DNA from: Tubulanus polymorphus
Lineage: Eukaryota; Nemertea; Palaeonemertea; Tubulaniformes; Tubulanidae
Assembly: GCF_964204645.1 (NCBI RefSeq)
Contig: NC_134032.1
Coordinates: forward strand, 14,874,275-14,938,274
Length of the DNA stretch: 64,000 nucleotides
Direction of reading: 5' to 3'
The notes under the pieces are model-generated. The model searched no databases and was not told the DNA's origin. It worked only from the letters and a program-made list of their open reading frames with translations. Below are positions 1 through 59,600 of the stretch, one piece after another (the first letter of the stretch is position 1; each line of letters opens with the position of its first letter). The position numbers were made by a program, and so were the translations under genes.

Positions 1-143
1 GTGTTCCTGACACCTGTGACAACGACATAGTCATCTTCTGTAGAGGTCCTAACATCTGGGACAAGGACATCTACAATATCTACATCATCGTAGATTTCGT
101 CCTGTCTAGTGTAGATCCTATCATCAGCTAAAGTAGGTATTGG
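1..143 (-). repeat. Tail exon C (partial, cut by window edge)
   Basis: Third paralogous tail exon of the CUB receptor, nearly identical over 143 nt to the start of tail exon B. It begins after an AG at 144-145 and stays open to position 1. How many more copies lie outside is unknown. Confidence 0.65.
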
Positions 144-3100
144 CTAAAAATAAATCCGTGAACAATTAACAAAGTATTCGCGAATACAGAATTGAAAACA
201 ATGAGAACGTATTTATTTTTACAAACCTGAAGTGCGACAACGTAGGTATCTTCAGGAGGGCTTCGGACACCTGCGACAATGTAGGTATCTTCAGGAGGGT
301 TCTTGATATCTGCAACAGCGACGTAGTCATCTTCTGTAGTGTTCCGGACACCTGCGACTATGTAGGTGTCTTCAGGAGGGTTCTTGATATCTGCAACAGT
401 GACGTAGTCATCTTCTGTAGTGTTCCGGACACCTGCGACTATGTAGGTATCTTCTGGAGTGTTCCTGACACATGCAACAACGTAGGTATCTTCTGTAGGG
501 TTCCGGACACCTGCGACAACGTAGGTATCTTCTGGAGGGCTCTGGACACCTGCGACAATGTAGGTATCTTCTGGAGGGTTCCTGATATCTGGAAAAATGT
601 CGGTATCTTCAGGAGGGTTCTTGATATCTGCGACAACGTAGGTATCTTCTGGAGGGTTCCTGACACCTGGGACAACGACATAGTCACCTTCTGTAGAGGT
701 CCTAACATCTGGGACAAGGACATCTACAATATCTACATCATCGTATATTTCGTCCTGTGTAGTGTAGATCCTATCATCAGCTAAAGTAGGTATTGGCTGA
801 AAATAAATCGGTAAACAATAAACAAAATATTCGCGAATACAGAATTGAAAACAATGAGAATGTATTTATTTTTACAAACCTGAAGTGCGACAATGTAGGT
901 ATCTTCAGGAGGGTTCTTGATATCTGCAACAGTGACGTAGTCATCTTCTGTAGTGTTCCGGACACCTGCGACTATGTAGGTATCTTCTGGAGTGTTCCTG
1001 ACACCTGCGACAACGTAGGTATCTTCTGGAGGGCTCTGGACACCTGCGACAATGTAGGTATCTTCTGGAGGGCTCCTGACACCTGCGACAACGACGTAGT
1101 CATCTTCTGTAGGGTTCAGGACACCTGCGACAACGTAGGTATCTTCTGTAGGGTTCCGGACACCTGCGACAACGTAGGTATCTTCTGGAGGGCTCTGGAC
1201 ACCTGCGACAATGTAGGTATCTTCTGGAGGGTTGCTGACATCTGGGCCAACGTAGTCATCTTCTGGAGGGTTCCGGACACCTGCGACAATGTAGGTATCT
1301 TCTGGAGGGTTCCTGACACCTGCTACAACGTAGGTATCTTCTGGAGGGTTCATGACATCTGGGCCAACGTACTCATCTTCTGGAGGGTTTCTGACATCTG
1401 CGACAAGGTTTTCATCTACGTCATCATCTGTAGAGTTCCATACATCTACGTCATCATCTGTAGAGTTCCATGCATCTACGTCATCATCTGTAGCGTTCCT
1501 TACATCAACGTCATCATCTGTAACGTTCCTGACACCTGCGACAACGACATCCACAATATCTACATCATCGTAGATTTCACCGTCATCTATGTCTTCGTAG
1601 ATACCGTCCTGTGTTGTGTAGATCCTGTCACCAACTCCAGAAGGCGGCGGCTAAAAATAAATCGGTTAAACAATTTACAAAATATTCACAAATAAGAAAA
1701 TTGAAAACAATGTATTTATATTTACAAACCTGATAGCACATTGCCCCTGGATCGGTCGTGTTGTTACCTATAAAAAATAATAGACTAGACATGAGATAAA
1801 ATATTACGTGTATTTATTCTAATTCAAAGAACTCCCTGTCTCTAAAATCAACAGTCAAAGTTTATTCTGGAGGACTCAGTTCCATTGTTATCGAATCTAA
1901 TTTGACTCAAATACCACAAACACCCCCCTTTCACTATAGCTTGTTTAAAGTAAAACAAACCAGTATTTTTGTTTCTCACGTTCCTCCGCTGTCTGCTCAA
2001 CACTGCAATGGCTATAACAGCCACTATTACTATTATCAGAAAACCGATCCCGAAAACAACTGTCAAATAACTACTTGTATCTGTATCTGTATCTGAAATA
2101 CAGGGTATGAAACCAATCTATATCAAACTGTTTAAAATAATAGTCTTTAGTTTATATATTTTATGTTCAACCATTTATCATTAAGCTACCTCTAACTTGT
2201 ATGACCCGCCATAGAAGTTTAAACCCAGCACCGCTTCCTGAGTTGTCTGATGTGAACTGTATTGTAATATTTCCAGCGTGGAATCCTTTACCAGGAGCAG
2301 TCGACCCGCAATACTGATAACTCCCTGATGAAGAAATAAATCTGATAAAACTTTATGAATCATAAAAATCATTCATGTTGTGAAGAGTGTTTAGATTTTT
2401 ACCGGCTCCACTCTGTATCGTCAACGCATCAGCGCAACCACCGTTACTTCTGGGTTGTATATCAAAATACGAGGAAAATGATATTTCAACAATCTGCAAA
2501 AAACATATGAATTTTAGAATTTAGTTTTAATTCAAAAAGTGAACAAACGTCTTCAGAATGCAGGGCCCGTTTATATAGATCAGATTTAACTTTAACCCGG
2601 AGTTATCAGTTTAGAACTAAACCCCAGAGCCCGGTTTCCCGAATGGGGATTTAATTTTAATTCGAATTAGGTGATAATTTGATTTAAAAATGTTTAATTC
2701 GAATTAGTTAATTGGATGATTAAATCTGTTTCACAATCGTGAATTAGCGAAAGATTAACTAACTAATTATTTCTATAACGTAGTTTCATTCATAAAATTC
2801 CTCTGTCGTTAAATAAGATGTTTTGGTTGTATGGTGAAATTGGTTTGCTCGTTTTCAGGTTAAAGTTAAAACTGAATTTAGCCCCCGCTGAGATCCTACT
2901 AGTGCAGAAAACCTGATAACATCATTTTTTCATGGACTTTATATTTACCGTGTTTTCATGAGTTTTAATCGCCCAGCTACAATTCAGTCTGCGGTAATAG
3001 TAGCTCGGATAGCGAGGACTCGTGATGAAACCTGATCTACCATTCTGTATTATAGGTGTTTTACTACATGAATCAACTACAAATAAATATTGAATTGAAT

Positions 3101-6100
3101 TGTTTTATATGTGATTTACTGATTCCATGATAAACTTCTCATTATGAGCTACCTTTCACAAATCGCCACAACAGTTTAAACCCTTTGTAGTTGCTATTAG
3201 AGTCGTCTGATGTAAACTCGATATGTACATCTCCGGAATAGTAACGTGTAGGTGGCGCTGTATTGCCACAATATACATTTGCTGTAAAGATAAACACACA
3301 AATCAATGATATATTTTTTAGCAGGATTTGAAAACAAAAATCTATCAGTAGCAGCCACACCGCAATATTCAAATACTCCCTGATGAAAAAGTAAATCTGA
3401 TAAAACTTTATCTATCATATAAATCATTCACGTTGTGAAGAGTGTTTAGATTTTTACCGTTACCACTTTTTATCGTCAACGCATCCCAGCAATCAACGAT
3501 ACCTTTGGATTCTATATCAAAAGACGAGTTAAATGATAATTCAACAATCTGCAAAAATATAAGAATTTAGATTATAATTTAGATTATATTTATTAATTGT
3601 AATTCAAAAAGCAAACAATCGTATTGTTTACAGAGTGTAGGACCCGTATATATATAGATCAGTTTTGTTCAAAACTAAACCCCAGATTAAAGTTAAAACG
3701 GATTTTAGTGCCCGTTGGGCTCCTGCTAGTGCAGAAACCTGATAACATCATTTTTCTCATAGACCAAATATTTACCGTGTTCTCAGGAGCTACAATCAAC
3801 CATCTACAGTCCAGATGGTCACCATAGTTGTTCGGGTAGTTAGGGCTGGCTATGACGCCTGGTCTACCATTCTGTATTATAGGTGTTTTACTACATGAAT
3901 CAACTACAAATAAATACCAGATTTATTGTTTTATATGTAATTTACTGATTCCATGATCAACTTCTCATTATGAGCTACCTTTCCAACTACGCCACAACAG
4001 TTTAAACCCTTTGTAGCCACCGCCATAGTCGTCTGATGTAAACTCGATATGTACATCTCCGGAATAGTAACGTGTAGGTGGCGCTGTATTGCCACAATAT
4101 ACATCACCATTATTTACTGTAAATATAAACACACAAATCAATGATATATTTTCTAGCAGGATTTGAAACCACAAATCTATCAGAAGCAGCCACACCGCAA
4201 TATCCAATACTCCTTGATGAAAAAATAAATCTGATAAAACTTTATCTATCATATAAATCATTCACGTTGTGAAGAGTGTTTAGATTTTTACCGTTACCAC
4301 TTTTTATCATCAACGCGTCATAGCACCGACCGCTACTACTTCTGGGTTGTATATCAAAAGACGAGTCAAATGATATTTCAACAATCTGCAAAAATATAAG
4401 AATTTCGATTATAATTTAGATTATAATTATTAATCATAATTCAAAAAGTGAACAATCGTATTGTTTACAGAGTGTAGGACCCGTTTATATAGATAAGTTT
4501 TAACTTTAACCCGGAGTTGCCAGTTCAAAAATAAACCCCAGATTAAAGTTAAAACGGATTTTAGAGCCCGTTGAGCTCCTACTAGTGCAGAAACCTGATA
4601 ACATCATTTTTCTCATAGACCAAATATTTACCGTGTTTTCATCAAGAGTTACAATCAACCAGCTACGGCACAGGGAGTTGTGATAGTTGTCCGGGTAGTT
4701 AGGACTAATTATGACGCCTGATCCCAGTAATCTATCTGTCCACCAGCAAGTCGACTCTACCAAAACTGTTCAGAAAAATACCTGTATCTATGATTTTAAT
4801 AGAGGCCGTGAATAAAGTACGTATATGCACGTAGGGGGAGGGGGTTTCAGAAATCCGTACAGGGAGGGGAGGTGTAAGCTCAAAGCGTTCATACTTCTCC
4901 AAGGGGGGGGGGGGGGTTAATGTTTATAGAACGTACTTTGTGCACGAAACACAATGTGATTTTACAAATATCCCCTTTATTTGTTGGGATTTCTTGGGAA
5001 TTCCCCATTCTCGGTCTTTCACTTCGTCAATGCGGACATTGTCATCAAAGCTCTGATGAATGCTGGTGAATTTTTCCCTCTTTAAACCATGAATCCTGAA
5101 AAATCCCCTTTCACATGGAGGGGGTCAATCATGAGAGTATGTACGCAAGGGGGGGGAGTTATAAACAAAAAACGTACAAAGAGCGTACATGGGCCGGGTG
5201 ATGGGGGAGGGGGTTAAAATACTGGAAGTCAAGCGCACATACTTTGTGCACGGCAGTTTTAAGACTCGTAGTATAGACCCAGTGGCTAACTCAATAGATA
5301 ATGAATTTAGTTAGCCTTCGGGTCAAGTTGATACCAGTCTATAAAAGCGGACTAGTCATCAGTCACCACACCACACTGATCACCAGGTCACCATAGCTGA
5401 CTGGTCACCAGTCATCACACCTTCACCACAGCAAAATGGTCACGACACTGACCAGACAAACTTACAAAAGCTATCAATCAGTTGTGAGTTAGAGTAAACC
5501 CTAGAGTTGAAATGAGTTCATTTTCACTGAGTTAACTCTGAGTCAAGTCTGAACTTACAACTGTGGAACTGAGTCTAGTATATTAGTAGTGGTTAGTGTG
5601 AACGACTGCCACGCGAGTTCAGTAAACTTGTCATATTTTTCAGTCATTTTCATTTCTACTATCAAATAAAAGTATAAAACCTAAATGAATACAGATTCAG
5701 ATTATATTTCTTACAATAATACTTAAGGTAGGCCTACGTAAATTATACTATTACAAACTAGATCTCTTTATAGAAATTTTCAAAAACTACGATAATATGA
5801 TATAATATATGTATGTTACTTGCTAAAAGTCACAGAATAATGTCATTTTTATGCACGCAGTTTGGACGGTAAAATTCATTGATTATCCAAGCTGAATATT
5901 TTTAAAGACACCACGGAGATTTGAAATATTTGAAAACTACTTCAGTTTTTCAACATAAGAAAATTGAAGTATTTTATCGTAAGCCCTACAATATGGACTC
6001 AAACAGGGTTTCACGACACGACAGATTTGGGGGGACTTTTGCCTAGGGGGGAGGGTTGAGCGGCCTTTTACCTGTTACCGTTCCTTCACCCCAGAGTGTT

Positions 6101-6286
6101 ACCGGGCTACGTAAGGCACCTGCGTCACTGATCTCAATAATTTTCCTCTCAAATTCATCTACATCAACAATCAATACAATTTAATCAGTATTAAGTGATA
6201 TTGATATTATTTATTCGCTTACCTTGAGAATTCTCGACGAATAAAATTACAGCGACCACAAACAAACTCTTCATCATCAACTCCAT
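1..6286 (-). CDS. CUB-domain transmembrane receptor with reiterated tyrosine-repeat cytoplasmic tail (3' end outside window)
   Basis: Unrecognised as a named gene. I assembled coding exons, in order, at 6223-6286, 4632-4765, 4292-4385, 3979-4116, 3776-3903, 3458-3548, 3153-3281, 2949-3076, 2403-2493, 2190-2324, 1961-2092, 1730-1767, 880-1650, 227-796 and below 1 to 143. All junctions are GT-AG and keep one frame (at least 928 aa). Residues 1-21 look like a signal peptide (hydrophobic FVVAVILFV). Then come three CUB domains of about 120 aa, each split into three exons with the same phases and each with four cysteines, SPxYPxxY, C.DAL, YCG and SDD..GF..LW signatures. One transmembrane helix lies at about 386-408, followed by a basic stop-transfer stretch (RQRRNVRNK). 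The tail contains IYEDI, IYDDV and many EDTYVVA units. Known: CUB domains are extracellular binding modules. Inferred: a cell-surface receptor signalling through phosphotyrosine. An in-frame upstream ATG at 6424 is possible; I chose 6286 because the signal peptide follows directly. Confidence 0.75.
227..796 (-). repeat. Tail exon B: 190-codon paralogous exon with 11 intact tyrosine units
   Basis: Part of the CUB receptor, phase 0 at both ends, starting PIPTLADDRIYTTQDEIYDDV. It holds the same 13-aa repeat as tail exon A. One unit has lost its tyrosine (EDTD, a TAC to GAC change). The flanking introns (144-226 and 797-879, 83 nt each) are almost identical, so exon plus intron was duplicated as a unit of about 653 bp. 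Confidence 0.7.
880..1650 (-). repeat. Tail exon A: 257-codon exon with 13 tyrosine repeat units
   Basis: Part of the CUB receptor. The exon is phase 0 at both ends. It opens with PPPSGVGDRIYTTQD, then a closely spaced IYEDI / IYDDV pair, then several TDDDVD units. These are followed by a 39-bp coding minisatellite with consensus NPPEDTYVVAGVR (13 aa). Thirteen units carry ED[TDE]Y. The tyrosines sit in an acidic context, which is typical of kinase substrates; that they are phosphorylated is inference. Confidence 0.7.
2190..4765 (-). other. Three tandem CUB modules
   Basis: CUB1 is 4632-4765, 4292-4385 and 3979-4116. CUB2 is 3776-3903, 3458-3548 and 3153-3281. CUB3 is 2949-3076, 2403-2493 and 2190-2324. 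Each module starts and ends in phase 1, with a second exon that begins in phase 0, so whole modules can duplicate without breaking the frame. Intron sequence is also conserved between modules, indicating recent genomic duplication. CUB3 uses a third exon (GSYQYCGSTAP) that survives only as a relic in the introns of CUB1 and CUB2. Confidence 0.75.
4766..6222. other. First intron of CUB receptor, G-rich and repeat-derived
   Basis: No coding signal seen. It contains a run of G at about 4905-4917, several GGGGGAGGGGG tracts (4830-5215), GTCACCA-type simple repeats (5350-5450) and a foldback-like stretch with GAGTTAACTC-type motifs (5480-5580). Confidence 0.5.
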
Positions 6287-7932: not shown

Positions 7933-13402
<5,470 letters not shown>

Positions 13403-16648: not shown

Positions 16649-19600
16649 TTATTTCGTGGCGCTCAGCGGATCGTCGAATATACTCGGAGCGTCGAAGATC
16701 GATGTTTCCGGGGTCGACGATGAATCGGACGCCGCCGCCGGTGATTTCTTTGATGATTTTTTCGTCGTCGCCGCGGTGGCGCCCCCAGTTTTTTTCGTTT
16801 TCGACTTTGTCGTCGACGGCGATGAGAAAATATCATCTGAAAATAATAACAATTGAACATAATCTAATAGGGGCGGCACTTCTTTCCACTTGACTTGCTT
16901 TTTCCCCCAACTATTGTCTGACATGTATCCGTTGCTTCCCAAGTCAGTAACCTGTCTGTGGTTTAGTTTCACGATCGGATATTTCACAAACAACGTATCT
17001 ATTGGTATAAGCCCATCCGATTATAAAAAGCTTACCACTAATGATTAGGTAACTAACTATTGCTTTCCCCCATTTGATACGCTTAGAATCCAATCAATTC
17101 ACACAGTCGTTAGACATGATAGACATGATTGTAGTTAAAAAATATGAGATAACTTATTTAGATAACTAATTACTAATTACATCGATACACTTCTTCTAGC
17201 AAAGTCCATCAATTTAACCCTTTCAGTGCTGGCTAATTAATACCCTATAGTGCTGAAGATAATTTGAAAATTTTGAAAAATTCCACCCTAGTGTGTTGAA
17301 TAACGGGAATACCACTATAGTGCGTCTACACCGCGGTGCAGTGTATCGTTAGTTACTAATATTTCACTATGTTTGACAGGTGCTGCCATCTTTCAAGAGA
17401 GATATTTCGTAATTACTAATTACATCAATACACCGCATTGCGGCGTACTAGCAAAATCAATCACCGATTTATACACCGCACTGCGGTGTAGACGCACTGA
17501 AAGGGTTAAAAGGCGGCCACTTTTATTTGACTTGCTTCTATGCTGACAATTCCCTGACAATGTATCTTATTGTTTTCCCTGATTTGATCTGCTAAGCAAT
17601 CAACGCAGTCAAATACGTTTAAACAAAAACCGTTTGATTTTTTAGCACAATCTCGACAAAATTCCCCGACTTTTTTTTAAAGAATAGAAATTTCCCTGAT
17701 TTCCAGGTGAGTAGTGGCCACCTCATCTGCTCGTTACCACGGTAACGACCGGTACTAACCGATATCGTCGTCTTTGAATATTGATTTAGTGGCAGACGTC
17801 GCCGTTTTCTTTTTCGGTTTTTTGTCGACGTTCGATATTTTCGGAACGTCGGCGAAAATGTCGGTGTCGTCCGCGAACAACGAATCGTCCGTCACTTTCT
17901 TCTGTCGCTTCGATTTAGATTTAGTCGTCGTCGTGGCAACGGCCTTGAAATGATCTTCGTCCTGAAAATGATTAGTCGAATATTTTTGTTGAAATCGAAA
18001 AGAAACCGACGGCTCAATCTGGGCGAAATAACGCGGCCACATTTAGTAAAAGCTAAACCGTAAGTAAACTTACCCCAAATATGTCAGGTTCTACAGATGT
18101 AGCTGCTGGTTGTACAGATGCGGCTGCAGGTTGTACAGATGCGGCTGCAGGTGCTACTGATGGTAAAACAGGTGCTGTTTGTTTATTGTTAGATTCTGGT
18201 GATTCAGCTGTAAATTGAATACGATATAAGTTATAGCCAATCACAGGTTTTGACCGCTACTGCTGACATACTATTTTTTGTACACAGTTCCTCCAGGAGA
18301 TTTACGTAAACTCAAGGAGGAGTTTTACTGTAAACTCAGGGAGGAGTTTTACCGCAAACTCAAGGAGTTTTACTGTAAACTCAAGGAGGAGTTTTACTGT
18401 AGGAGATTTACCGTCAACTTGAGAAGGAATTTACCATTAACTTGAAGAAATTTACTGTAAACCCAAGGAGATTTACTGTTGGCCTAAGGAGATTACCGCA
18501 AACCCAAGGAGGAAATTTACCGTTAACTCAAAGAGGAGTTTACCATTAACTGGAGGAGTTTACCATTAACTGGAGGAGTTTAGCATTAACTGGAGGAGTT
18601 TAGCATTAACTGGAGGAGTTTACCATTAACTGGAGGAGTTTACCAAGGAGGAGTTTATTACTTACTCTTCGATATTAAACTCGGTAAATCTTTTTCAACT
18701 TTTGCTTTTCTTTCTTCTCGTTCTTTCACGAATTCGGGAGCGAATAAATCCTCGCTCTCCGGCGACATGATTCGATCCGATTCGTCGCTGAAAATTCCCG
18801 GAGATTCAGCGTCGAGGAAACGACTCTTTTTAGACGACGACGAACTACTGGCGCCCCCTGTCCCGAAAATATCGCTATCGTCGTCGTCGAATATCGAAGA
18901 CGACGTTGATTTCGTTTTAGCCGGAGTCCCGAATAAATCCGTCGGTTTTTTAACCTCCGTCGATATCTTAACAATCGGAGGAGCTGCCGCGGTATCCAAC
19001 GGCGACGCGTCGGATTTAATAGCAGTCTTACTCGTCGTCGTCGTCGTGGAAACAACGTCGCCGAAAATATCGTTTGAAATTTTATTTTCGGAAGAATTTG
19101 AATTCGGTGTTCGCTCCTCGACGGAGGAACCGTTCAATAAATCCGAATTTGAATTAGTTGTTTTATCCGTATTCCAAATATCGGCGTCGTTGCCGAGGCC
19201 GAGGTCGTCGTTTCCGAACATATCGTGACTCGGCGTCGGAACGTGTCTCGTGGTGGCACCACCATCGGTAGTTTGATTGTTCGTCGTTCGATCACTAGGT
19301 GGCGTACTGCTGGATGGAATGGAATCGGTAACGTCGGAGTTCTGGTTACGTCTGCTCGTCGCCCTTGACGGTAGACGACGTTTATTCTGTACTTTCGCTC
19401 GACCCTGAAACCAAATTCATAAAATAAAATCAGCTTCAAGTTAGATTCAAGTCCAAAGATTTCCTTTCACTTCCAATGACACAAAACAAGGTGGCGCCAA
19501 TTTTGTTTGATTTGACTTTTACCCGACTATTTCCTGAAATGCACATTGTTTTTTTCCCCTGATTTGATCTACACAGTCAAATATATAAAACATAGACGGA

Positions 19601-22600
19601 AACTGTTTGAAATTGATTGTAGTTAAAGAATATGAGATAACTAATTGAGATAACTAATTGAGATAACTAATTTAGATAACTTATTATTACTAATTTTTAA
19701 CTACAAGAAATTACTAATTACATCGATACACTACATCTAGCAAATTCCATCATCAATTTACAAGGTCGCCACTTTTATTTGACTAACTTTTCCCCCCGAC
19801 TATTCCCCTGACATACACGTTTTCCCTGACTTGATCAGCTAAGAATCCAATCAATAAACACAGTAAATGTAAGACATTGACGGAAACTGTTTTTAACTGA
19901 TTTTCACATTGTTTTCCCTGACTTGATCTGCTAAGAATCCAATCGATTACCCAAACACAGTCAAATACGTAAGACAAAGACGGAGACTGTTTGATTTTAC
20001 GCATGATCTACCAATCTCAACAAATCTCCCTGACTTTTAGCTTTTTGTTACAAAATTTCCTGACTTTTTTTAGAAAAGAAAATTCCCTGACTTTTCCGTG
20101 ATTTCCAGGTAAGTGGCGCCCCCTGTTAAACTGTAGGGTCCAACAGAGAACTGTTGAACTCAGTTTGTGGCGGTCGTTACCTTGTTAGCACTACTGAGCG
20201 GTTTAACGTTCGCTGGTTGCTCAAACGATATCCCGTCCTCCGTGGGCGTTCTCATAGGTGGCGCTGCACCCGGTAGTAGAGCAGACGGATTTATACTCAA
20301 ACCGGACTGCGCACAAAAAACAAAACAAAATTGTTTAAGGTTTAATTTCCGAAAAACTATTTATAATGTAATCGAAATTCTTAACAACGCTAACCTGCAA
20401 CTGTTTGATAGGTGAAGTGCCGTTGAGTTGTTTCTCTTGTTTGCCAGTAGGAGGCGTTGGTGTGAACAGTTCCCCGCCATCGTCACCTGTAGATTCGTTG
20501 AGTAACGAACGACCACCAGTAGGGGGCGCCGTCGGTTTAGGAGCAGACGCGAATAAATCATTCTCGTCGTCTGCCGGAGTCGATTCTCCGAATAAAGGAT
20601 CGTATTTCGGTTTGGAAATCTCCGGTAGCGGAGGATCGCTCGGAGGTCTCGGTTTCTCCGGACTGGGAGTGGACTTCAGACCGGATCTCACGGCGAACGG
20701 ATCGATTCCTCCGAACATCGAGACTCCTCCAATCGGTTTCTTCGATCTCGTCGTTGTCATCGTTTCTACTGGCGACTACAATGAAATAATTTCAAAATTC
20801 CGTAAGTTATTACCACGGTTACCGCAGATCGAGTGAGGATTCAACGATTGAATTTTCATCGGATTCGTAGCGAATCTGTAAACTTTGTCAGTTATTACCA
20901 CGGTTACCATAATTTGAATTCAACTGTTGAAATCTTTACCTCATCCTTTTTAGAATCGGTCGTAGATGATGAACTAGTAACTCCCTCTATATTAACGTCG
21001 GTCGTCGCGAGAAAATTCGGTCGAATTGCCGCGGCTGGTTTCCGCTCTGAAGCGAAGAGGCCGTCATCCTCATCTTTATCATCATCACCACCGAAAAGAT
21101 CGGTACTACTCGATTTAACAGTTACCCCGGCAACAGTAGCAGACGTATTATTAACGACGACCGAAGACTTAGGTTGCGCCAGAGATGGTGGAGGCTTCTC
21201 CTTAAAAATAGATTCATTAATAGAGTATGAAAATCCACTTGTGGCAAGTGAAGATCCACCAGATGTCACTAATGTGCAGTAGGACATCAACTACTGCAGT
21301 AATTGAGGATTCCACTTGTGGCAAGTGAGGATCCACTTGGTGGTCACTAGTTGTCTGTAAACACTGACTGTGACACCACCTGGTGTTGAATTACGACACT
21401 AACCGTAGTCGGTGAATTCAGCGGACTCGACGCTCCGAACAGATCGACAGACGGATTGTCGTCGACTGCCGGCTTCGAGAATAAAATATCGTCATCGGCA
21501 TCGTCGAAAAGACTTTTACTTCCTGTTCGCTTCTTTTCCGTCGACTGAAAGAAAAGTTAAAACGATTTCGAAAAATTCACATGAAAATAAATCTATTCCG
21601 GCGATCACCGCCAGAAACCAGCGAGGCGATCACCGGGGGGACACTGACCTGATTTTTCGCTTCTGGTTTTTTCGCCGGTTTCGTCGATGGGGCAACCGTC
21701 GCCGTGGAACCGAACAAATCGTCGTCGTCATCGTCGTCGAACAGCGATAATGTCGTTTTCCTACTAGGTGGCGCCGCTGCTGCTTTACTGGAAGCATTCG
21801 GCGTTGTTGATTTTTTTTCGTCCTTGACGGACGTCGATGAAAATAAATCAACGCTATCCTCGAATAAACTTGATTTACCAGCAGACGCAGGAGCAGCAGA
21901 TGGACTCGATATTGTCCGCTCGTTGTTAGGCGCTTGTTTTTTAGCGGCCGTCGTCGAGAAGAAATCATCGTCGTCGGCGAATAAAATGCTGCTGCCGCGT
22001 GATTTACCAACGTCTTTAGCGGCGGATGGTTTTGTAGTCACGGCGCCGAACAGGTCGTCACCGGCGATGTCGTCTTCTTCGTCGAATAAACCACCTCCGA
22101 ATTTCGGTTTCGGTTTCCTGCAAATTTTTCATCAGTTAAAAATATTTAAATTTGAATGAATCTGAATGGTTTTAGATGTAGGGATGGTTTGGTTGACGAA
22201 ATTAAACCTGGTGGTGGTTGATGGAATTAAACCTGGTGGTGGTTGATGGAATTAAACCTGGTGGTGGTTGACCGAATTAAACCTGGTTTACCTGTCTATT
22301 TTTTGTTCCTCCGGTTCCTCGGAGAATAAACTGTTGCTCGATTGCGACGAACTGCGTTCAACCTTCGAAGAGCCACGAGCAGACGAACTTTTCGATTCGC
22401 TCCGATCATCGTCGTCGGATACATCGTCATCGTCGGATCGCGGCGGCGGTGGATGATGCTTCGCCAAGATGGCCGCCGTAAGAGGGTTGCCAGCGTTACC
22501 GAATATAGACACCCCGCCGATCGGAGCCTAAAACAAACGACAAAAAACGAAATGAAAACAAAATTCAGTGAGAAAAATTTCCATTTTTCTAAGCAATGAA

Positions 22601-41100: not shown

Positions 41101-44100
41101 CTGACTGACTGACTGATTGACTGATTGATTGACTGATTGACTAGCTGTTTTACTGGCTGACTGACTGATTTAGTTGATCTATACTGGCTGACTGACTTAC
41201 CAGTAGACTGATTGACTGACTAGCTAATCGACTGACTGACCCCTCCCTCAGCATGTGGGGTTAGTCAATGACCGACCCCTCTCTCAGCCTGTTGGGGTGA
41301 GTCGATGACCGACCCGTCTCTCAGCCTGTTGGGGTGAGTCGATGACCGACCCGTCTCTCAGCCTGTTGGGGTGAGTCGATGACCGACCCGTCCCTCAGCC
41401 TGTTGGGGTGAATCGATGACCGACCCCTCCCTCAGTCTGTTGGGGTGAGTCGATGACCGACCCCTCCCTCAGTCTGTTGGGGTGAGTCGATGACCGACCC
41501 CTCCCTCAGTCTGTTGGGGTGAGTCGATGACCGACCCCTCCCTCAGTCTGTTGGGGTGAGTCGATGACCGACCCCTCCCTCAGTCTGTTGGGGTGAGTCG
41601 ATGACCGACCCCTCCCTCAGCCTGTTGGGGTGAGTCGATGACCGACCCGTCTCTCAGCCTGTTGGGGTGAGTCGATGACCAACCCCTCCCTCAGCATGTG
41701 GGGTTAGTCGATGACCAACCCATCCCTCAGTCTGTTGGGGTGAGTAGATGACCGACCCCTCCCTCAGTCTGTTGGGGTGAGTCGATGACCGACCCGTCTC
41801 TCAGCCTGTTGGAGTTGTTGTTGTTGTTGGAATAATTACCTATTGATTCAAAGTTATGCATGATATCGTCGACCCTGCTGTGTCCATTGTGTATTATACG
41901 TCTCGAGTATTCACAGTAATGTCGGCCATCTTCTTCTAGTTCTTTTATAAATCTGCGAATACCTGTAAAAAGTGAGGTATGAGAGTATAAACAAGAGGAG
42001 AGGTGTGGAGTGAGTGGAGAGAGGTAGAAAGAGGCGAGGGGAGGTGGAGGAGAGATGGAGGGGAAAGGTGAGAGGGTGAGAGGGGAGGGTAAGAGAAGTA
42101 AGGGAGAGGGGAAGAGTGAAGAGGTAAAGGAGAGGGGAGGAGAGAGTGAGGGGAGAGGAGGGAGTGAGAGAAGGGAGGGGAAGGGGTGAGAGAAGGGAGA
42201 GGGGAGAGAAGGGAGGGGAGAGAGGGTAGAGAAGGGAGGGGAGAGAGAAGGGAGAGGAGAGAGGGGAGAGGAGGGGAGAGAGAAGGGGGGAGAGAAGGGA
42301 GGGGAGAGAGAAGGGAGGGGAGAGAGAAGGGAGGGGAGAGAAGGGAGGGGAGAGAGAAGGGAGGGGGATAGGAGTGAGGGAAGGGAGAGGAGAAAGAAAG
42401 AAGGGGGAGAGAAGGGAGGGGAGAGAGAAGGGGAAGAGAAGGGAGGGGGATGGGAGTGAGAGAAGGGAGAGGGGAAAGAAAGAAGGGGGAGAGAAGGGGA
42501 AAATGTTAGATGGAGGCAGGAGTGATTCACTTACCAATAGTATGAGTGCGGCAAACTGATAAAATAACAATAGCGACCAGTAAATTCCAGAATAAAGCCG
42601 CGCACGAATACGCGGCTCGCGACGTGTATCTCAGGTGACAAATCCATCGATTCAGATTGACTTGTTCACACGTCTGCGCCGAGAACTCGTAACGATTGTG
42701 TACGAGATTCACCGCGATAAAAACCACGCCCAAAACCGCCACCAAATACGACGAGTTGATTTTGAATATCGTTTTCGCGTGCAATCGTACGCTTTGCAAC
42801 ATCATCTTATTGGTGAACAAACGAAACGCGAGGTGATTCGCGTAGACGCCCAACGCGCAATACGAACAAACGATACAGACCTGAACGCCACCTGTGATCA
42901 CGGTCGTCGACGTCCACTCCGTAATGATGTCGTAAACGTAGTACCAAGTCATCGTAACGGCGTGTAGGATCGAAAACGTCAACGTCGACATGAACAACAC
43001 GGTTCCGAACCACGGTCGATCGCCGGCGTGCAGACGGATTCCGAGACATTTCGCGATGATAAACCACGCCCAGTACGGCAGACGTTTCGATTGTTTTACG
43101 TTCGTTTTGTCGACGATCTCCGGCGTGATCGTGTCGCCGAGTTGATCGGTGATTTTGTAACTGTTCTCTCCGAAGTATAAAGCGGAGTCGGCTCGGTTCC
43201 GGCGACTGGAAAAAAATTAACAATATTTTTAAATATAGCAGCAAAGCAGCGATTACGGGTTTTCTGCTTTGCGCGAGTCTTCACATTCAAGCTTGAATAA
43301 ATCACAGAAAATGAATATAGCAGCTTGCTTCTGTCGTCCCAGTTTTTGTGAATATATCCTAAAAGTCATCTTCATACTGAATATGAGCTCAGCTCATATA
43401 AGATGACTATTATATGACTATTATTATTATTATAGAATATAGTTGTAACATTGAAATAAACTACACAAGCTCAGAGAAACAATTCTGGCTCATTTTTTTC
43501 ACTAGCTCAAGGAATACAGTATTCCTAAAGATGACTATTAGGATATAGTTGAAACGTTGAATAAACTACACTAGCTCAAGGAATACAGTATTCCTGAAGA
43601 TGACTATTAGGATTAAGTCGAAACGTTGAATAAACTACACTAGCTCAAGGAATACAGTATTCCTGAAGATGACTATTAGGATAAAGTCGAAACGTTGAAT
43701 AAACTACACTAGCTCAAGGAATACAGTATTCCTGAAGATGACTATTAGGATATAGTCGAAACGTTGAATAAACTACACTAGCTCAAGGAATACAGTATTC
43801 CTGAAGATGACTATTAGGATAAAGTCGAAACGTTGAATAAACTACACTAGCTCAAGGAATACAGTATTCCTGAAGATGACTATTAGGATATAGTCGAAAC
43901 GTTGAATAAACTACACTAGCTCAAGGAATACAGTATTCCCGAAGATGACTGAATAGTACACTAGCCCAAGGAAACATATCAGAACCTTTTTATTCTCAGT
44001 GTGGTATTTTATATATAATCTTTACAACACAACTCAAGAGTGCTTCATCAATGTTCAAAATAAAACAGGTTTGAGTAAACTGATACCTATATGACGTCGT

Positions 44101-50600: not shown

Positions 50601-53600
50601 TCGTCGTCGCCGGTTAAAACGCTTCCGTCTGCCGTTAATCGACCGAGCGGAAAATCAGCCGCGAAAAAAGGAAAAGGTTCCGGGAAAAAGGTAATTATTT
50701 CGATCCACGATTTTTCTTGAATGGAAATTCCGGATATTCCAGATTCATTACCAACGCGCCGGGTATATATTACTCAGGACCCGGTTCCACAATTGTGAGT
50801 TAGAATTAACTCTGAGTTAAATTAGTTCATTTTCAATTAGTTAACTCCGAGTTAAATCTTAACTCAGAACTGTGGAACTGGGTCCTGGGCGCCTCGTGCA
50901 CTTTTTCCCTCACTTCAAATTACAAGCGATATTCTTCAAATTTGGTATTCGTTCTATAATGGGGTCGGTTCAATTAGGTTTATGGTTCTGAATCATGCGT
51001 TTCTTATCTGTTTCTAGGAAAAAGGCGACGAACCGCGAAAAGGACGAAAAATAATGCCGTCCAGTGGTAACCGCGACGACGTCGACCGCGACCAACAGAG
51101 ACGCCACCACAGCGGGCCGGGACACGGCAATAAAAAACTGCCGGAAAAAGGCGAGAAAAAACCGTTGCAGCCTCACGAGAAAAAACCGCAACACGCTCGC
51201 AAGAAAATAGCTGAATTCGAACAACGGAAAAAAGAGAAAAAACATCCGTCGCCGTCGGATACGAAAAATATATTCAACGAGTTACAACAATCGAAAACGG
51301 AAATTCCTCACGAGGACAAAAATTTGGATAACGCGATCGAAAGTTCGAAAAAAATAATTACGGATTCCTCCGTCAATAGTGATATTAAAAAAACTGCTGA
51401 CGTCGTCACGGCGACGAGCGGAGGACGCGATCACGTGTCGGAGATCATCGTCAAAAACGAATCGGGAAAACAGAACTTCGTCGTACGCGACATGACCGTC
51501 GCCGATAGTAACGGCGGCCCGCCGAAACTTGTTAAACTCATTCAGTTAAAACACGTTAAAGTCTGTTTGAAAAAACTGGACGAACAATCGACCCGGGGTC
51601 GCTACAAAATCACATCATCGGATTACGAGAAACCGTCCGACGGCGAGGGTCGCTGCAAAATCAGATCGTCGGATTATGAGAAACCGTCTGATAGTGAGGG
51701 TCGCTGCAAAATCAGACCGTCGGATTACGAGAAACCGTCTGTTGTCGAAGGCGGTAAAAAGGCGTCTGCTCCCGGTGACATTAGTCCGTCTGCTAGTGTC
51801 GTTCTCGCTTCAAAAGATTCCAAATCTTCGGATAGTTTAAAATGTACAATTAAATTGAACAATTCGACACCAGGGGGAGCTAGTCGTAGTAGCTATAAAA
51901 GTAGTTCGTCGTTGAGTAAACGCGATAAAGACAGAGGAAGTTCGTCGAGGTCGTCGTCGTCGACGACGAAATCGAAATCGGATAATTCGTCGCGTCGTAA
52001 AGACTCGTCGAGTCATAGTCGTCATGGCGATGAACGCGATAAAAAACATTCCTCGGCAACGACGAAAAATCGGAAATCGTCGAACGACACGTCATCGTCG
52101 TCGTCGTCGAAATCTCGAACAAATAAACATTCGAAAAATACGGATTTAAAAGAGAAAACCTCCTCGCTTCCCTCCTCGTCCTCCTCGTCGCAGACGCTAC
52201 AAAAACCCGACGTTAAACAAGAATCAAGCGAAATCAGTTCCACGTCCGTTCAACCGGTCATAACCGGGGGCAACCATTTCGTCGTTGCCGGCGAGAACAA
52301 TGGCGGCGGCGACGAGGATGAGGTATACGATGAGGCGGATGTAGATGAAACTGAAGATGACGATCCGACGAAATTATGGTGTATCTGTAACCAGCCTCAT
52401 AATAACAAGTACGTCGTACTATCTCAGATATATCTGATATTTTAAAATTGAAAATTATCAATATCGAATGCATAGATATCAGAGTTTAGCGTTCATCTTA
52501 CCTCATCAGGGACTCGAACACCTGATAGCATCATTACACAGCTGAGGTCGAGTCTCACGATGGCATCAAATTCAAATCTCTTCGGAGGGAGGATGTTTCA
52601 GGCTTTGAATATGAAAATATTGCCAAATACCTTTTAAAAGGGGGAATTTCAGTATATCCGATATATCTAGGGTAATTTTGATATATGGTATGTGTGATTT
52701 CGATATATCCGATATATTGGGGGGGGGTAAATTTTGATATATCTGATTCGTGTAAGTTCAATATATCTGATAGGTAATATTGATATATCAGATAGGTGTA
52801 TCTGCTATATTTAGGAGTAATTTTGATATATGACATGTGTAATTTCAATATATCTGATATATCGGGTAATTTTGATATATGACATGTGTAATTTCAATAT
52901 ATCTGATATATTGGCTAATTTTGATATATGACAGGTGTAATTTCAATATATCTGATATATCTGGTAATTTTGATATATGACATGTGTAATTTCAATATAT
53001 CTGATATATCGGGTAATTTTGATATATGACATGTGTAATTTCAATATATCTGATATATCGGGTAATTTTGATATATGACATGTGTAATTTCAATATATCT
53101 GATATATTGGCTAATTTTGATATATGACAGGTGTAATTTCAATATATCTGATATATCTGGTAATTTTGATATATGACATGTGTAATTTCGATATATCTAG
53201 GGTAATGTTGATATATGGTATGTGTAATTTCGATATATCCGATTCATTTAGGTTTATGATCTGTTGCGACCGGTGTGATTTTTGGTACCACGCGAAATGC
53301 GTGAACATCAGCAAAAAACGTGGACAGGCGATGGACGCCAACAACGAAGAGTGGATCTGTCCCGTCTGCGTCGGTGAGCGTAGCAACCATTCTAGGCATT
53401 GTTGTCGTTGTCGATCGGCAACCGGTTTTGATATCGATTTTCCTGTTTCAGACAAAGAACGTAAAAATAACGAAGAACAGAAGCAACGTAAAACGGAGCA
53501 GATGCAGAAATTCACGGAACGCGTAAGAGATTTAATTATCAAACGATTCAGTTCCGGCAGTAACGAAAATTCATCTAAATCCTGCAGATTTAGTCAGATA

Positions 53601-56600
53601 AATCGGGGAAAATTCAGGAGCCGGTTGCATAGTCATGACTTAGATTTAAGACCAGTCTAAGTTCATTTTGGTTCTATAACCAATCTAACAACTTAAGACC
53701 AGTCTAAGCTCATTTTAGTTCTATAACCGATCTAATAACTTAAGACCAGTCTAAACTCATTTTAGTTCTATAACCAATCTAACAACTTTGGACCAGTCTA
53801 AACTCATTTTGGTTCTATAACCAATCTAACAACTTAAGACCAGTCTAAACTCATTTTAGTTCTATAACCAATCTAACAACTTAAGACCAGTCTAAACTCA
53901 TTTTAGTTCTATAACCAATCTAACAACTTTGGACCAGTCTAAACTCATTTTGGTTCTATAACCAATCTAACAACTTAAGACCAGTCTAAGCTCATTTTGG
54001 TTCTATAGCCAATCTAACAACTTAAGACCAGTCTAAGCTCATTTTGGTTCTATAGCCAATCTAACAACTTAAGACCAGTCTAAGCTCATTTTAGTTCTAT
54101 AACCAATCTAACAACTTAAGACCAGTCTAAACTCATTTTAGTTCTATAACCAATCTAACAACTTTGGACCAGTCTAAACTCATTTTGGTTCTATAACCAA
54201 TCTAACAACTTAAGACCAGTCTAAGCTCATTTTGGTTCTATAGCCAATCTAACAACTTAAGACCAGTCTAAGCTCATTTTGGTTCTATAGCCGATCTAAC
54301 AACTTAAGACCAGTCTAAACTCATTCTAGTTCTATAACCAATCTAACAACTTAAGACCAGTCTAAGCTCATTTTAGTTCTATAACCAATCTAACAACTTA
54401 AGACCAGTCTTAAGATTTAAGACCACTTTTGGACTTAAGTCACGATTGTGCAACCAGCCCCAGAGATTAGTAAGGATTAGGATTAGGATTAGGATTTTAT
54501 TTACACTCCAACCATTTCTCTATGGAACATGGAGGGAGACTTATACAAAGTATACAATATTTACAATTAACAGAAAGTATAAACTTGTTTTGATAAAATA
54601 TAACAAAGTTATTAACAATATATACACCATTTACAACATACTAATTATTGGAGGGATCTATATACATCTAAGCCTTTTTTAATGAATTTTGCATATGGGA
54701 TGAAAGTGGCGCGCCCTGGTGGATGGAACTGCGTTCTAAATCGTTGTTGTCGTTGTATTTTCGTAGATAAAATCGTTGAAGTTTTTCAAGTCGGCGACGA
54801 ATCGACAGAATTCGGACAGCGGGGGCGCCGGCTCTCCGTCCGATGAGAGCACCGTCTACGGTGAAATACGAGTTAAAACGGCCGCGTCGAAACCTCGAAG
54901 AAATAAACGCAAACTTCAAGTTTTCAGGGTCAGTAAGAATCAAATACTCGAAACGATTTCGTTTGTTGCGTTTTCTTTAAATTCTAGACAATTTGAAGAA
55001 AGTCGCCAGTCTTCCAAAAACACGCAGGGTTTTTTACATGTCAGGAATATTTGGATTTTCTTGAAAATCAGGGAAAACTTTTGGAATTTGAATTTTTGGT
55101 GCCTAGTTGTTCTAATGAATGACACAAGGAACCTCTTGATAGGAAACAGTCCTCATTGAAGATATCTTATAATTTTTGGGAATTTGAATTTTTGGTGTCT
55201 AGTTGTTCTTGCTGGTGACGAGTGACACAAGGAACCTCTTGATAAGAAACAGTCCTCACTGAGGATATCTTATAATTTGATCAGGGAATTTGAATTTTTG
55301 GTGTCTAGTTGTTCTTGCTGGTGACAAGTGACACCAGGAACCTTTTGATAAGAAACAGTCCTCATTGAAGATATCTCATAATTCAATCAAGGAATTTGAA
55401 TTTTTGGTGTCTTCTTGTTTTTGCTGGTGACGAGTGACACAAGAAACCTCTTGATAAGAAACAGCCCTCACTGAGGATATCTTATAATTTAATCAGGGAA
55501 TTGAATTTTTGGTGTGTTGTTCTTGCTGATGAGATGACACAATGAACCTCTTGATAAGAAACAGCCCTCTCTGAGGATATCTTATAATTTAATCAGGGAA
55601 TCTTTGCTCAAGAGTACTGGGAAATATAAGGTAATTTAGGATTACCCTGATTTTGAGTTTTAACGTAATCGACATGTATTGATATTTCACAGAGTTCACA
55701 GAAAGTTTCCGTTCCTCTCGAGAATAAATGTATCGCGTCTAAATGTCAGAAACCGTTGGATCCTGGTTGTATTTACTGTAATGCTGAGTGTATTAATAAA
55801 CACGCTATTGAATCATTATCGATGCTCGCTAAAGAGAAAGCTAAAGTTACAGGGGTAAGTTTTAACCATCCTTTCTCTATCCCTTCCCTTTTGCTCCCTC
55901 TCCTCTCTTGTCTCTCATCTCTCTTGTTCCCTCTCTACCTAACTCCTTCTCCCTCCCCTCTCCCTAACTCTCTCATCTCTCCCTCTCTGCTTTCTCCCTC
56001 ACCCTCAGTAGTTTCCTCCCTCGCTCTGTCTCCTGCTCTTTCCCTCTCCTTTCCCTATTTCTCTCTCCCTCTCCTCTCCTTTCTCCCTCTCCTTTCTCTC
56101 TCTGTAGTTTCCTCTCTCTCTCTGTAGTTTCCTCCCTATCTCACCTCTCTCCTTGCCTATCTCTCCTCTCTCCTTGCCTCTCTCTCCTCTCTCCTTGCCT
56201 CTCTCTCCTCTCTCCTTTCCTCTCTCTCCTCTCTCCTTAACTCTCTCTCCTCTCTCCTTAACTCTCTCTCCTCTCTCCTTAACTCTCTCTCCTCTCCTCT
56301 CTCCTTTCCTCTCTCTCCTCTCTCCTTAACTCTCTCTCCACTCTTCTTAACTCTCTCCTACCTCTCCTCTCTCTCTGCTCCCTATCTCACCTCTCTCCTT
56401 ACCTCTGTCTCCTCTTTCCTAAACTCTCTCTCCACTCTCTTTACCTCTCTCTTCTCTTCAATAAACAAACTAACAGCTCTCTGATATATGTCTCTCTTAT
56501 ACGTGTAGGTGAAGAGTTTGCCTCATCATATGGAACGAGTTGTAGTAATGGAGCGTAGTACCGGTAAACTATTAACCGGACCGAACGCCCCGACCGTCGG

Positions 56601-59600
56601 AACGCTGAAAATATGGCTCGAAAAACACCCGACTTACGAAGTGTTACGCCCAAAAAAACAGTCCACATCATCCAGTAAGTTACTGTGTATTTTAAAGTAC
56701 AGTTCGAGTCCGTTATAACGCCACGATTGAGACCAATAGAAAACCCGACTTTGAACTGGATGCTGGTTTTCAGATTGATTACAGTGGAAAAGTCCATTGT
56801 AACGCCAGAGTTGGGACGAATGAAAAAACACGGCTTCATGTTACGAATTTTCTGTCATAACGAGTTGAATTTGAATTATCTTGTTTAACAGATTTTCTGT
56901 TATAACGGTTGATATTTCCATTGAATTTGAATTGGATTGAGCATTGAGATTCGTTCTCTGAAAAATGTTGGCGTTTGAAAAGTGGCAGTGGAGGATGGCA
57001 GAGTTATAACGGACTTTGACTTCACTTTAGTTGACACGTATTCGTTAGTGTATATGTGTATTGTGCCGCCAATACTCTGTCTTTGTATTGTAGTGAAACA
57101 AGGTATAAATTTTTTAGCCTTAGTATCGGTCTACTGACTGCTACAATACATTCATAGCGATTGAATTCATCGTTTTGTCATGCTAGTTTAAACATTGTCG
57201 CGCCTTTGCCCAACACTTATGTGAACCTGTAATGGCTGTGTAAGGCCCTATATTAAGTGTTATCCCCTTCTATGACAGTACAGTTGAGTATTTCAATTTA
57301 GACGTGCTGAATTTAATGCTAAATCTCGGTCTTTGTCTTATAACAGTAATGTTATCGTTTTGATTGTATTTCGTAAAGTATTATTATTGGTAGTAGAAAA
57401 TAACCTGTACACTTAAACGTGGAAAACAGATATAAAGTGTCACCTGGGCCCAGTTTCACGAAAAAGTGTAAGCTTAAAACAGTTAAGTTTGAATTGTTGT
57501 CCTCATTGAAAACATGAAGTAACCAATGGCAATTAATCAAAAAATTTGAGTTAAACTTTTTCGTGAAACTGGCCCCTGGGGCCGGTTGCTGAAAAGTTGG
57601 TTAACCAGTGGATAGTTGATATGGTGACAATTGAAATTTCATTGTTACTATGGTATTTATCCACCGGTTATCTTTAACCAACTTTTGAGCAACTGACCCC
57701 TGATGATGATCTCTAGTGTGAGATCGAAACATTGTGTATGAACTTTCAACTGTCACTATGCCAACTATCCAACTGGTTAACTTAAACCAATCTTTGAGCA
57801 ACTGCAGCCCCTGGGGCCGGTTGCATAGTCATGGCTTAGACTTAGGACCAGTTTAAGACCAACTTAGTTCTATAGCCAATCTAACAACTTCAGACCGGTC
57901 TTAAGATTTAAGACCACTTTTGGACTTAAGTCTTGATTATGGAACTGGCCCCTGAACACTATTGCGAAGATAACAATAAGGAAATATCTTTGAATATTCA
58001 AAAACCCTGAATTTGATTATGTTTTTGTTTCTTTCTCAAGAAAAAGACGAACCGTCCCGCGGCGGTAATAATAAAGATCCACGTCACCAGGGGGCGTCTA
58101 CGAAATCTTCGTCGCAGTCGAGCAATCAACAGCCGGATCAGATGGACCCGAATCGCGCGAACGTTCGAAAAATTCTCCGTCAAATCCTCGAAAAACGGTA
58201 AACAATTTCTCCGTGTTCCGTTAAAAAAAAACAAAACAAAAGAAAAATTTAAAAAAAAAGAAAAATTAAAAAAAAACGAAATAAAAATGGTTCGTATTTT
58301 TTTCATTTCTCTCAGGGTCGACGAAGCGGACGACGAAATTTGTAACCACGGCGACGTGAAGAAAACCGTTACAACAATCGAGGAGGAAATGTTTAAACAA
58401 TGCAACCAGCACACGAATCATAAATACCTATCGAAATTCCGTAATTTAGTGATAGCCGTACGAGATCCGAATAACCACGGACTGTTCCGACGTATACTGA
58501 AAGGGATGATACGTCCACCTCGTTTGGTCGCCATGACGCCCGAGATATTGATGTCTCGCGAGTTAGCGCTGTGGGGCGAGAAGGCGACGGTGACGGCGAC
58601 CAATTCAAAGTCAAACGGCGATAAAAAACCAACGCTGGCCGTAATACCGAGAGAAACACAACGAATGGAGGTCAGTAATCCGGCCATCTTGATTCCTCTA
58701 ACCCCCTATCAGTTCCTCAGTAATCCGGCCATCTTGATTCCTCTAACCCCCTATCACTAAAGAGGGTGCTGAAAGACTATTTCAGGCTATTTGATGGCTC
58801 TGAGGCTATTAGAAGTCTCAAAAGAACTGTGCTGGTAGCCAATAGAGGGCTCTGAGGAACTCTCTGGTAGCCGATAGAGGGATCTGAGGAACTCTCTGGT
58901 AGCTGATAGAGGGATCTGAGGAACTCTCTGGTAGCCGATAGAGGGATCTGAGGAACTGTGCTGTTAGCCAATAGAGGGCTCTGAGGAACTCTCTGGTAGC
59001 CGATAGAGGGATCTGAGGAACTCTCTGGTAGCCAATAGAGGGCTCTGAGGAACTCTGCTGGTAGCCAATAGAGGACTCTGAGTGATAATTATTCATTTGT
59101 TTCTATTTTTAGCATCTCCGCGAGCAGACGTTTAATCCGGCAGCAGACGTACTCGGAACATTAATCGTCGACACGACGTCTCAACATCGAGAACATGCGT
59201 TCGATTTAAACTGTCACATCTGCACGGGAACTACCGGCGCCACCACTGGTAGGAAGAAATCTCGTAGTCACGACAACGACGACGAAGACAACAATGCGTC
59301 GAACGCGAAACGAGCGAAAGTTTCGTCGACGGAGAATCTCGGAATCGTCGACGAATCGGAGAGCGATTATCCGAGCAGCAGCGCCGATTTAACGCAACAA
59401 AAGATGGAGCCGCCGATGCAGGAATCTCCGTTAGTCAGTTCAACAATGCTGTAAGTTTAATCTCCATGGTTACTGATCCGCTCATTTGAACTGTATAGCT
59501 TGTAACGTATTGATATTCTCCGTGTGTGCAGGTCTCCTCCTCCGCTGGAGTGCGAAGCGACGTCTGCTGCTGGTGAGTTGGAGCAGACGCCCGATGAGCA

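Follow-up and report, generated by a model that had tools for sequence, protein, structure and literature searches.

What kind of receptor carries a long array of tyrosine-centred repeats inside the cell, and what could such a tail do there? The question is raised by a 64,000-nucleotide stretch of the genome of the nemertean Tubulanus polymorphus (hereafter the window, C8:14874275-14938274 on contig C8), whose minus strand, from base 6286 to base 1 and over 252 further bases beyond the left edge, contains one 16-exon receptor gene. Once spliced, this gene measures 3,117 nucleotides, or 1,038 amino acids (aa) plus the stop codon, and its exons encode in order a signal peptide, a short linker, three CUB domains, a membrane segment, a second linker (exon J) and the tail (exons T1 to T3). 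We propose that its product is probably a single-pass CUB receptor with a disordered, acidic, multivalent and modular phosphotyrosine docking tail on the inner side of the membrane, a reading that rests on sequence comparisons within one genome.

The tail comprises 578 residues with 38 tyrosines and 30 ED[TDGE]Y units. Exon T1 (880..1650, phase 0-0, 16 tyrosines) starts with a core, DRIYTTQDGIYEDIDDGEIYDDVDIVDVV, followed by four acidic units of 10 aa and then by the ED-x-Y units; T2 (227..796, phase 0-0) has 13 tyrosines, and T3 (1..143, extending to -252), the last tail exon, has nine. The initial annotation had counted at least 24 in-frame units of 13 residues over two complete exons and part of a third. 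This count agrees with ours, as 24 of the 30 units lie inside the window, in T1, T2 and T3, and six of the seven units of T3 fall left of base 1. Across nine extracted tails, 13 aa is indeed the dominant spacing (107 of 134 gaps, the others being 14 aa in 26 and 10 aa in one). The protein ends with VVADGIRPHLG, and the stop codon lies outside the window, at C8:14874022.

The number of units differs widely between genes, as had been predicted from the window alone: EDxY occurs 31 times in the window gene and 21, 20, 19, 18, 11, 10, 10 and 10 times in the other eight extracted tails. Of the first 140 bases of T2, 136 are identical to T3, and the introns of the two exons agree at 77 of 83 positions, which means that a whole exon was copied together with its intron. 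Since the internal tail exons are all in phase 0-0, the reading frame survives the copying or skipping of an exon. A resemblance of the end of T2 to T1 was weak (154/194 with 12 gaps) and was not used.

The splice model that joins this tail to the CUB domains has AG at all acceptors and GT at all internal donors, and its phases close. The first exon (6223..6286, donor phase 1) contains the start codon and the signal peptide MELMMKSLFVVAVILFVENSQ; the second, a short linker (6072..6158, phase 1-1) with canonical sites and an open frame, is the least certain of the chain. Each CUB domain is built from three exons with phases 1-0-1-1, located at 4632..4756, 4292..4385 and 3979..4116 for the first domain, 3776..3903, 3458..3548 and 3153..3281 for the second, and 2949..3076, 2403..2493 and 2190..2324 for the third. 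Pfam recognizes PF00431 in three stretches (E = 4.5e-44; 149.7 bits for a curated cut-off of 21.4), and the ectodomain is similar to the CUB domains of cubilin, neuropilin and MASP, cubilin being the best match among solved structures (E = 8.1e-38). The membrane exon (1961..2092), which has a counterpart in five other C8 CUB genes, encodes, as read from the sequence, a single hydrophobic helix followed by the basic stretch SRQRRNVRNK; in the spliced model this helix and the signal peptide share one reading frame. The spliced model and Pfam therefore bear out the three CUB modules and single membrane helix of the initial annotation. Exon J (1730..1767), a linker of 38 nucleotides (GNNTTDPGAMCYQ, phase 1 to 0), opens a cassette shared with genes on contig C2 and with the C8 loci at 3.117 and 4.142 megabases (Mb).

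We searched the genome (267.8 Mb, 77 contigs) and obtained at least 18 matches to the DNA of the repeat exons, on C8 and C2, and at least 35 matches to the repeat-tail protein, both counts being lower bounds. Four close paralogues with the same exon order are spread over 1.4 Mb of C8, at 15.10, 15.56, 15.87 and 16.28 Mb. They have in common the signal exon (21 residues identical to the window gene in four of four), J and T1, and their last tail exon closes with GIRPQLG-stop; including the window gene, the ending GIRP[HQ]LG-stop is present in five of five C8 genes. Because this exon order is kept in the paralogues, the CUB, membrane and repeat exons very likely form one gene, as the initial annotation had assumed. 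The number of CUB domains is more variable: eight, five, six and seven in the four close paralogues, three in the window gene and two in a distant gene at 11.92 Mb, as counted by the first exon of each domain (the second exon was missed in two genes and overcounted by one in another). Two further loci with weak tail matches, at 3.117 and 4.142 Mb of C8 (the latter L025), have kept J and the core with 0-1 repeat units; the tail of the first is out of frame past the core. Upstream of it, C8:3.112-3.118 Mb (L026) contains CUB exons (Pfam E = 3.5e-20) and more ectodomain exons that have no Pfam family; PLAT domains had been suspected at this locus and none was found by Pfam. A fragment at 0.557 Mb of C8 is non-genic and contains stops. 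The tail search also gave a weak match to a satellite-like array, C10:10998600-11001115 (L031), in which all three frames of one strand are open and which is unrelated to the tail.

Several observations indicate that the tail is maintained as protein. In all 15 extracted arrays (2,807 codons) the repeat frame contains no stop, against 128 and 228 stops in the other two forward frames, although this openness is partly built in because the arrays were chosen by their EDxY reading frame. The tail core, that is, the first 36 codons of T1, is non-repetitive and was not chosen in this way; its ratio of nonsynonymous to synonymous substitution rates (dN/dS) is 0.29 in a comparison of five C8 genes, 0.26 with nine genes and 0.18 with three divergent ones. 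For the repeat-bearing exons, dN/dS is 0.61 over the whole of T1 and 0.53 over the last tail exon, with single pairs from 0.16 to 1.22 (rough values, as repeats were aligned), compared with 0.71 for the last CUB domain of the same C8 genes; the tail is therefore constrained no less than the ectodomain. In view of the open arrays, the core dN/dS and the conserved stop, we rejected a non-coding minisatellite. An antisense reading was also rejected: an antisense open reading frame of 301 aa exists, but of the 15 arrays only six lack stops in the same-register antisense frame, which comes without CUB exons.

One could still imagine that only the membrane-proximal core is functional and that the array is an acidic spacer under weak selection or none, grown as a minisatellite in a disordered tail. 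The arrays do expand by copying units and whole exons, the number of units ranges from 0-1 (C8 3.117 and 4.142 Mb) to 31, and the repeat exons are under weaker constraint than the core (0.53-0.61 versus 0.18-0.29). Nevertheless, the residue behind [PTSALQ]E-x-x is tyrosine in 150 of 157 cases (the others being valine in five, aspartate in one and phenylalanine in one), and it is kept in subfamilies whose linkers have diverged. All 15 arrays are moreover free of frameshifts, in contrast to the stops in the 0.557 Mb fragment and the tail that runs out of frame at 3.117 Mb. On balance, we consider a mere spacer unlikely.

The motifs around the tyrosines speak to a second alternative, in which the array would be a set of sorting signals, its YxxPhi motifs setting the surface level of the receptor or the uptake of CUB ligands. 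Cubilin-like CUB receptors work in uptake, and cubilin is the best structural match of the ectodomain; furthermore, 12 of the 38 tyrosines of the window gene fit Yxx[LIMFV]. The other 26 do not, and only two of 11-14 fit in the gene at 11.92 Mb and in the C2 genes, although the EDxY core is kept there. NPxY is absent from all nine tails, and the exchange with a phosphatase domain described below fits phosphotyrosine signalling better, which makes a sorting role improbable.

Returning to a docking tail, the sequence around the tyrosine in the array is Y-[VI]-V-[APV], and YxxP occurs four to eight times per tail in five C8 tails. The repeat unit has diverged between subfamilies (NPPEDTYIVAGVR, NPPEDEYVFADAR, NPTEDDYVNTNIR) with ED-x-Y retained; in the C2 tails, YVN (YxN, five in each) replaces Y-[VI]-V-[APV]. 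That the subfamilies keep the tyrosine and change the residues behind it suggests that each has retuned its readers. The IYEDI/IYDDV pairs noted initially stand for T1 only: T2 and T3 have YTTQ or YTRQ plus YDDV, and lack YEDI. YxTQ is the form read by STAT3, YEDI is near the pYEEI of Src-family SH2 domains, and YVN is a Grb2-like form.

An indirect pointer to phosphotyrosine comes from C2. At 4.37-4.39 Mb, three tandem genes have exon J followed by a T exon (GDRIYSTQEDVYEDIDDHDDVDIV... and, after it, EDDYVNTNIRKATEDTYVVADV... units) behind a non-CUB ectodomain, which contains an F5/8-like piece (Pfam E = 6e-4, under the curated cut-off), FN3 domains (E = 1.7e-7 and 2.5e-12) and an EGF-like cysteine-rich piece recognized by eye from its cysteines, for which Pfam gave no family. 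A search with one FN3 domain led to a fourth gene with the same ectodomain, at C2 4.154 Mb, about 0.2 Mb from the tail genes. This sibling (C2:4148800-4159181; L032, L033) is a receptor tyrosine phosphatase gene: its joined exon pieces match PF00102 (E = 6e-51), the signature HCxxGxxR[ST] is present as the pieces VIVHC and SAGAGRTGT in neighbouring exons, and the nearest solved structure is that of receptor phosphatase alpha (E = 5.2e-65). No phosphatase signature turned up where the DNA downstream of the three array-bearing genes was scanned. The four C2 genes thus share an ectodomain and differ in their signalling tail, which is one mark of paired receptors.

Homology between the phosphatase gene and the tail genes extends at the DNA level across the ectodomain and the membrane exon and ends at C2:4152953 in three of three cases. 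One tail gene is 93.3% identical to the phosphatase gene over 5,758 bp, with 0.98-1.00 identity in 300-base windows over the FN3 exons and introns. A stop-bearing relic of the next phosphatase exon (local score 68, maximum 31-32 in 100 shuffles) remains in each of the tail genes between the membrane exon and J. About 8 bases past this relic, from C2:4371901, homology to the membrane-J intron of the C8 genes begins (score 50 with the window gene, maximum 30 in 200 shuffles); in alignments with all five C8 genes, it starts at the identical base every time. The J-T1 intron is likewise homologous between C2 and C8 (score 50, best shuffle 31). From these sequences we conclude that a copy of the phosphatase receptor on C2 has acquired the J and tail cassette in exchange for its catalytic part, the direction of the exchange being given by the remaining phosphatase relic. 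An assembly artefact was rejected, as the join is common to the three tandem copies. As the tail now occupies the inner position that a tyrosine phosphatase once had, a phosphotyrosine role gains indirect support. The gene family and the phosphatase exchange both lie beyond the window and were thus not visible to the initial annotation.

The same sibling relationship, together with the acidic residues flanking the tyrosines, could be taken to mean that the array is a phosphotyrosine sink, a substrate or decoy that absorbs the activity of a kinase or of the sibling phosphatase and recruits no effector. The distinct and conserved motifs of the core (YxTQ, YEDI and YDDV) suggest specific readers instead, and we give this explanation little credence. 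That the genes are simply non-functional, being pseudogenes or CUB exons adjoining an untranscribed minisatellite, is highly implausible despite a C2 ectodomain dN/dS near 1, in view of the 16 exons joined in phase, the same ending in five C8 genes, the open frames, the core dN/dS of 0.18-0.29 and the lack of stops in the orthologous ectodomain segments aligned among the four C2 genes.

If the tail is a docking platform, ligand binding would cluster the receptors, and a Src- or Syk-type acidophilic kinase could then phosphorylate the acidic-flanked tyrosines of E-D-x-Y. The conserved membrane-proximal module (YxTQ, YEDI, YDDV) would recruit specific SH2 adaptors, while the repeats (Y-[VI]-V-[APV]) would multiply weak docking, so that more units may give a stronger signal. 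Going one step further, the array-bearing and the phosphatase-bearing genes of C2 might work as a pair, with similar ligands and opposite effects on phosphotyrosine.

A number of observations weigh against this proposal. YxxA accounts for 19 of the 38 tyrosines of the window gene, and to our knowledge no SH2 class is established for it. The loci at 3.117 and 4.142 Mb, with 0-1 units, imply that the array is not essential in every member. The motifs of classical immune receptors are lacking: in none of nine tails did we find a strict immunoreceptor tyrosine-based activation motif (ITAM; YxxI/L, 6-8 residues, YxxI/L) or inhibitory motif (ITIM; [SIVL]xYxx[ILV]). The switch motif (ITSM) of SLAM type, TxYxx[VI], is absent from the five close C8 tails, window gene included, and from the C2 genes, with a single match in the gene at 11.92 Mb. 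An ITAM, ITIM or ITSM receptor was rejected on this motif scan, and the initial description of the T1 pair as close to an ITAM does not hold, its two motifs being separated by five residues and the second ending in valine. The C2 tail genes have lost the YDDV tyrosine (HDDV), and one of the three has lost the first tyrosine as well. At the cassette boundary, the score exceeds the best shuffle for five of five C8 genes with the first C2 gene (t1), but only for four of five with t2 and three of five with t3, a weaker match. Finally, dN/dS among the C2 ectodomains, excluding one non-orthologous segment of two genes, is 0.69-1.11 (highest in the F5/8-like domain, 0.80-1.31, and lowest in the FN3 parts); values near 1 are as compatible with relaxed constraint or decay as with diversification. 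The pattern of C2 divergence would also be compatible with an exchange of middle parts between genes.

Parts of this arrangement have parallels elsewhere. CDCP1 has few tail tyrosines and is not known to carry a tandem array. It resembles the window gene in its CUB ectodomain, single helix and the use, predicted for the window gene, of tail tyrosines as docking sites, and differs in the array; there is no sign of orthology, which was rejected because the Pfam CDCP1 CUB model reaches 16.3 bits for a cut-off of 27. In mammals, the tail tyrosines of CDCP1 are phosphorylated by Src-family kinases and serve as docking sites (PMC4395315). DCBLD1 and DCBLD2, also CUB-bearing receptors with YxxP motifs, are described as binding the CRKL SH2 domain through several intracellular YxxP once phosphorylated by Fyn or Abl; these motifs are not described there as a tandem array or mobile cassette (PMC6029619). 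Orthology to DCBLD was rejected, as LCCL and F5/8 type C are both absent from the nine families matched by the window protein at E <= 1. The YDDV motif recalls the T-cell adaptor ADAP/FYB, a cytosolic protein rather than a receptor and without such an array, whose pYDDV in mammals binds SLP-76, Nck and PLC-gamma1 and so forms a hub for SH2 domains (PMC2908683). Bacterial EPIYA proteins are reported to have tandem tyrosine motifs whose number alters SH2 binding; these are delivered by bacteria into host cells, and no common descent is suggested. Siglec-11/16 and the CEACAM pairs are reported to have near-identical ectodomains and opposite signalling tails, with gene conversion keeping the likeness (PMC5701461, PMC2832619). 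The arms of such vertebrate pairs are ITIM tails and ITAM partners, whereas on C2 the part of the arms would be played by a phosphatase catalytic domain and a tyrosine array; the genome is of invertebrate type, and the ectodomains are FN3 or CUB. Among open-licence papers, judged by title or abstract opening, we found no report of such a receptor. Overall, to judge from sequence, the receptor would act like a docking scaffold that brings known kinds of parts into an unusual combination, and the C2 set looks like paired receptors.

The rest of the window contains other candidate genes. On the plus strand, 53121-63999 encodes a PHD finger, a TFIIS central domain and a SPOC domain, in that order, which we take to be the order of DIDO/PHF3-type proteins. 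On the minus strand, the exons at 16649-22128 are rich in acidic [DLS]-L-F-[GD] motifs, which recall the tails of FAM21 of the WASH complex, with no Pfam match in the two frames scanned, and a hydrophobic frame of 229 aa at 42527-43216 has the look of a multi-pass membrane protein, with no match in Pfam. The long simple-repeat arrays at 11335-12600 (TCCCTG and CTCCA type) have long open frames on both strands and are probably not coding. Rfam gave no match in the window.

What is known of tyrosine-based immune signalling comes chiefly from ITAM and ITIM, besides a small number of scaffold receptors. Against this background, it is tempting to suggest, tentatively and as a possibility that we hold well short of likely, that these genes are invertebrate paired receptors acting on phosphotyrosine balance, in which a near-identical ectodomain is combined either with a phosphatase or with an expandable array. 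The mobile cassette would consist of the end of an intron, exon J, an intron and a T exon; it would have come to stand behind no fewer than two ectodomain types (CUB, and F5/8-like plus FN3), and the number of units would set the gain of recognition or allorecognition in analogue fashion. Since the breakpoint on C2 is mapped within about 8 bases, comparison with related species can date and verify its origin. If the proposal is correct, a docking valency encoded by a minisatellite would offer, ready-made in nature, a test of how signal strength depends on receptor valency, and the C2 genes would show how pairs of activating and inhibitory receptors may arise through a single DNA join.

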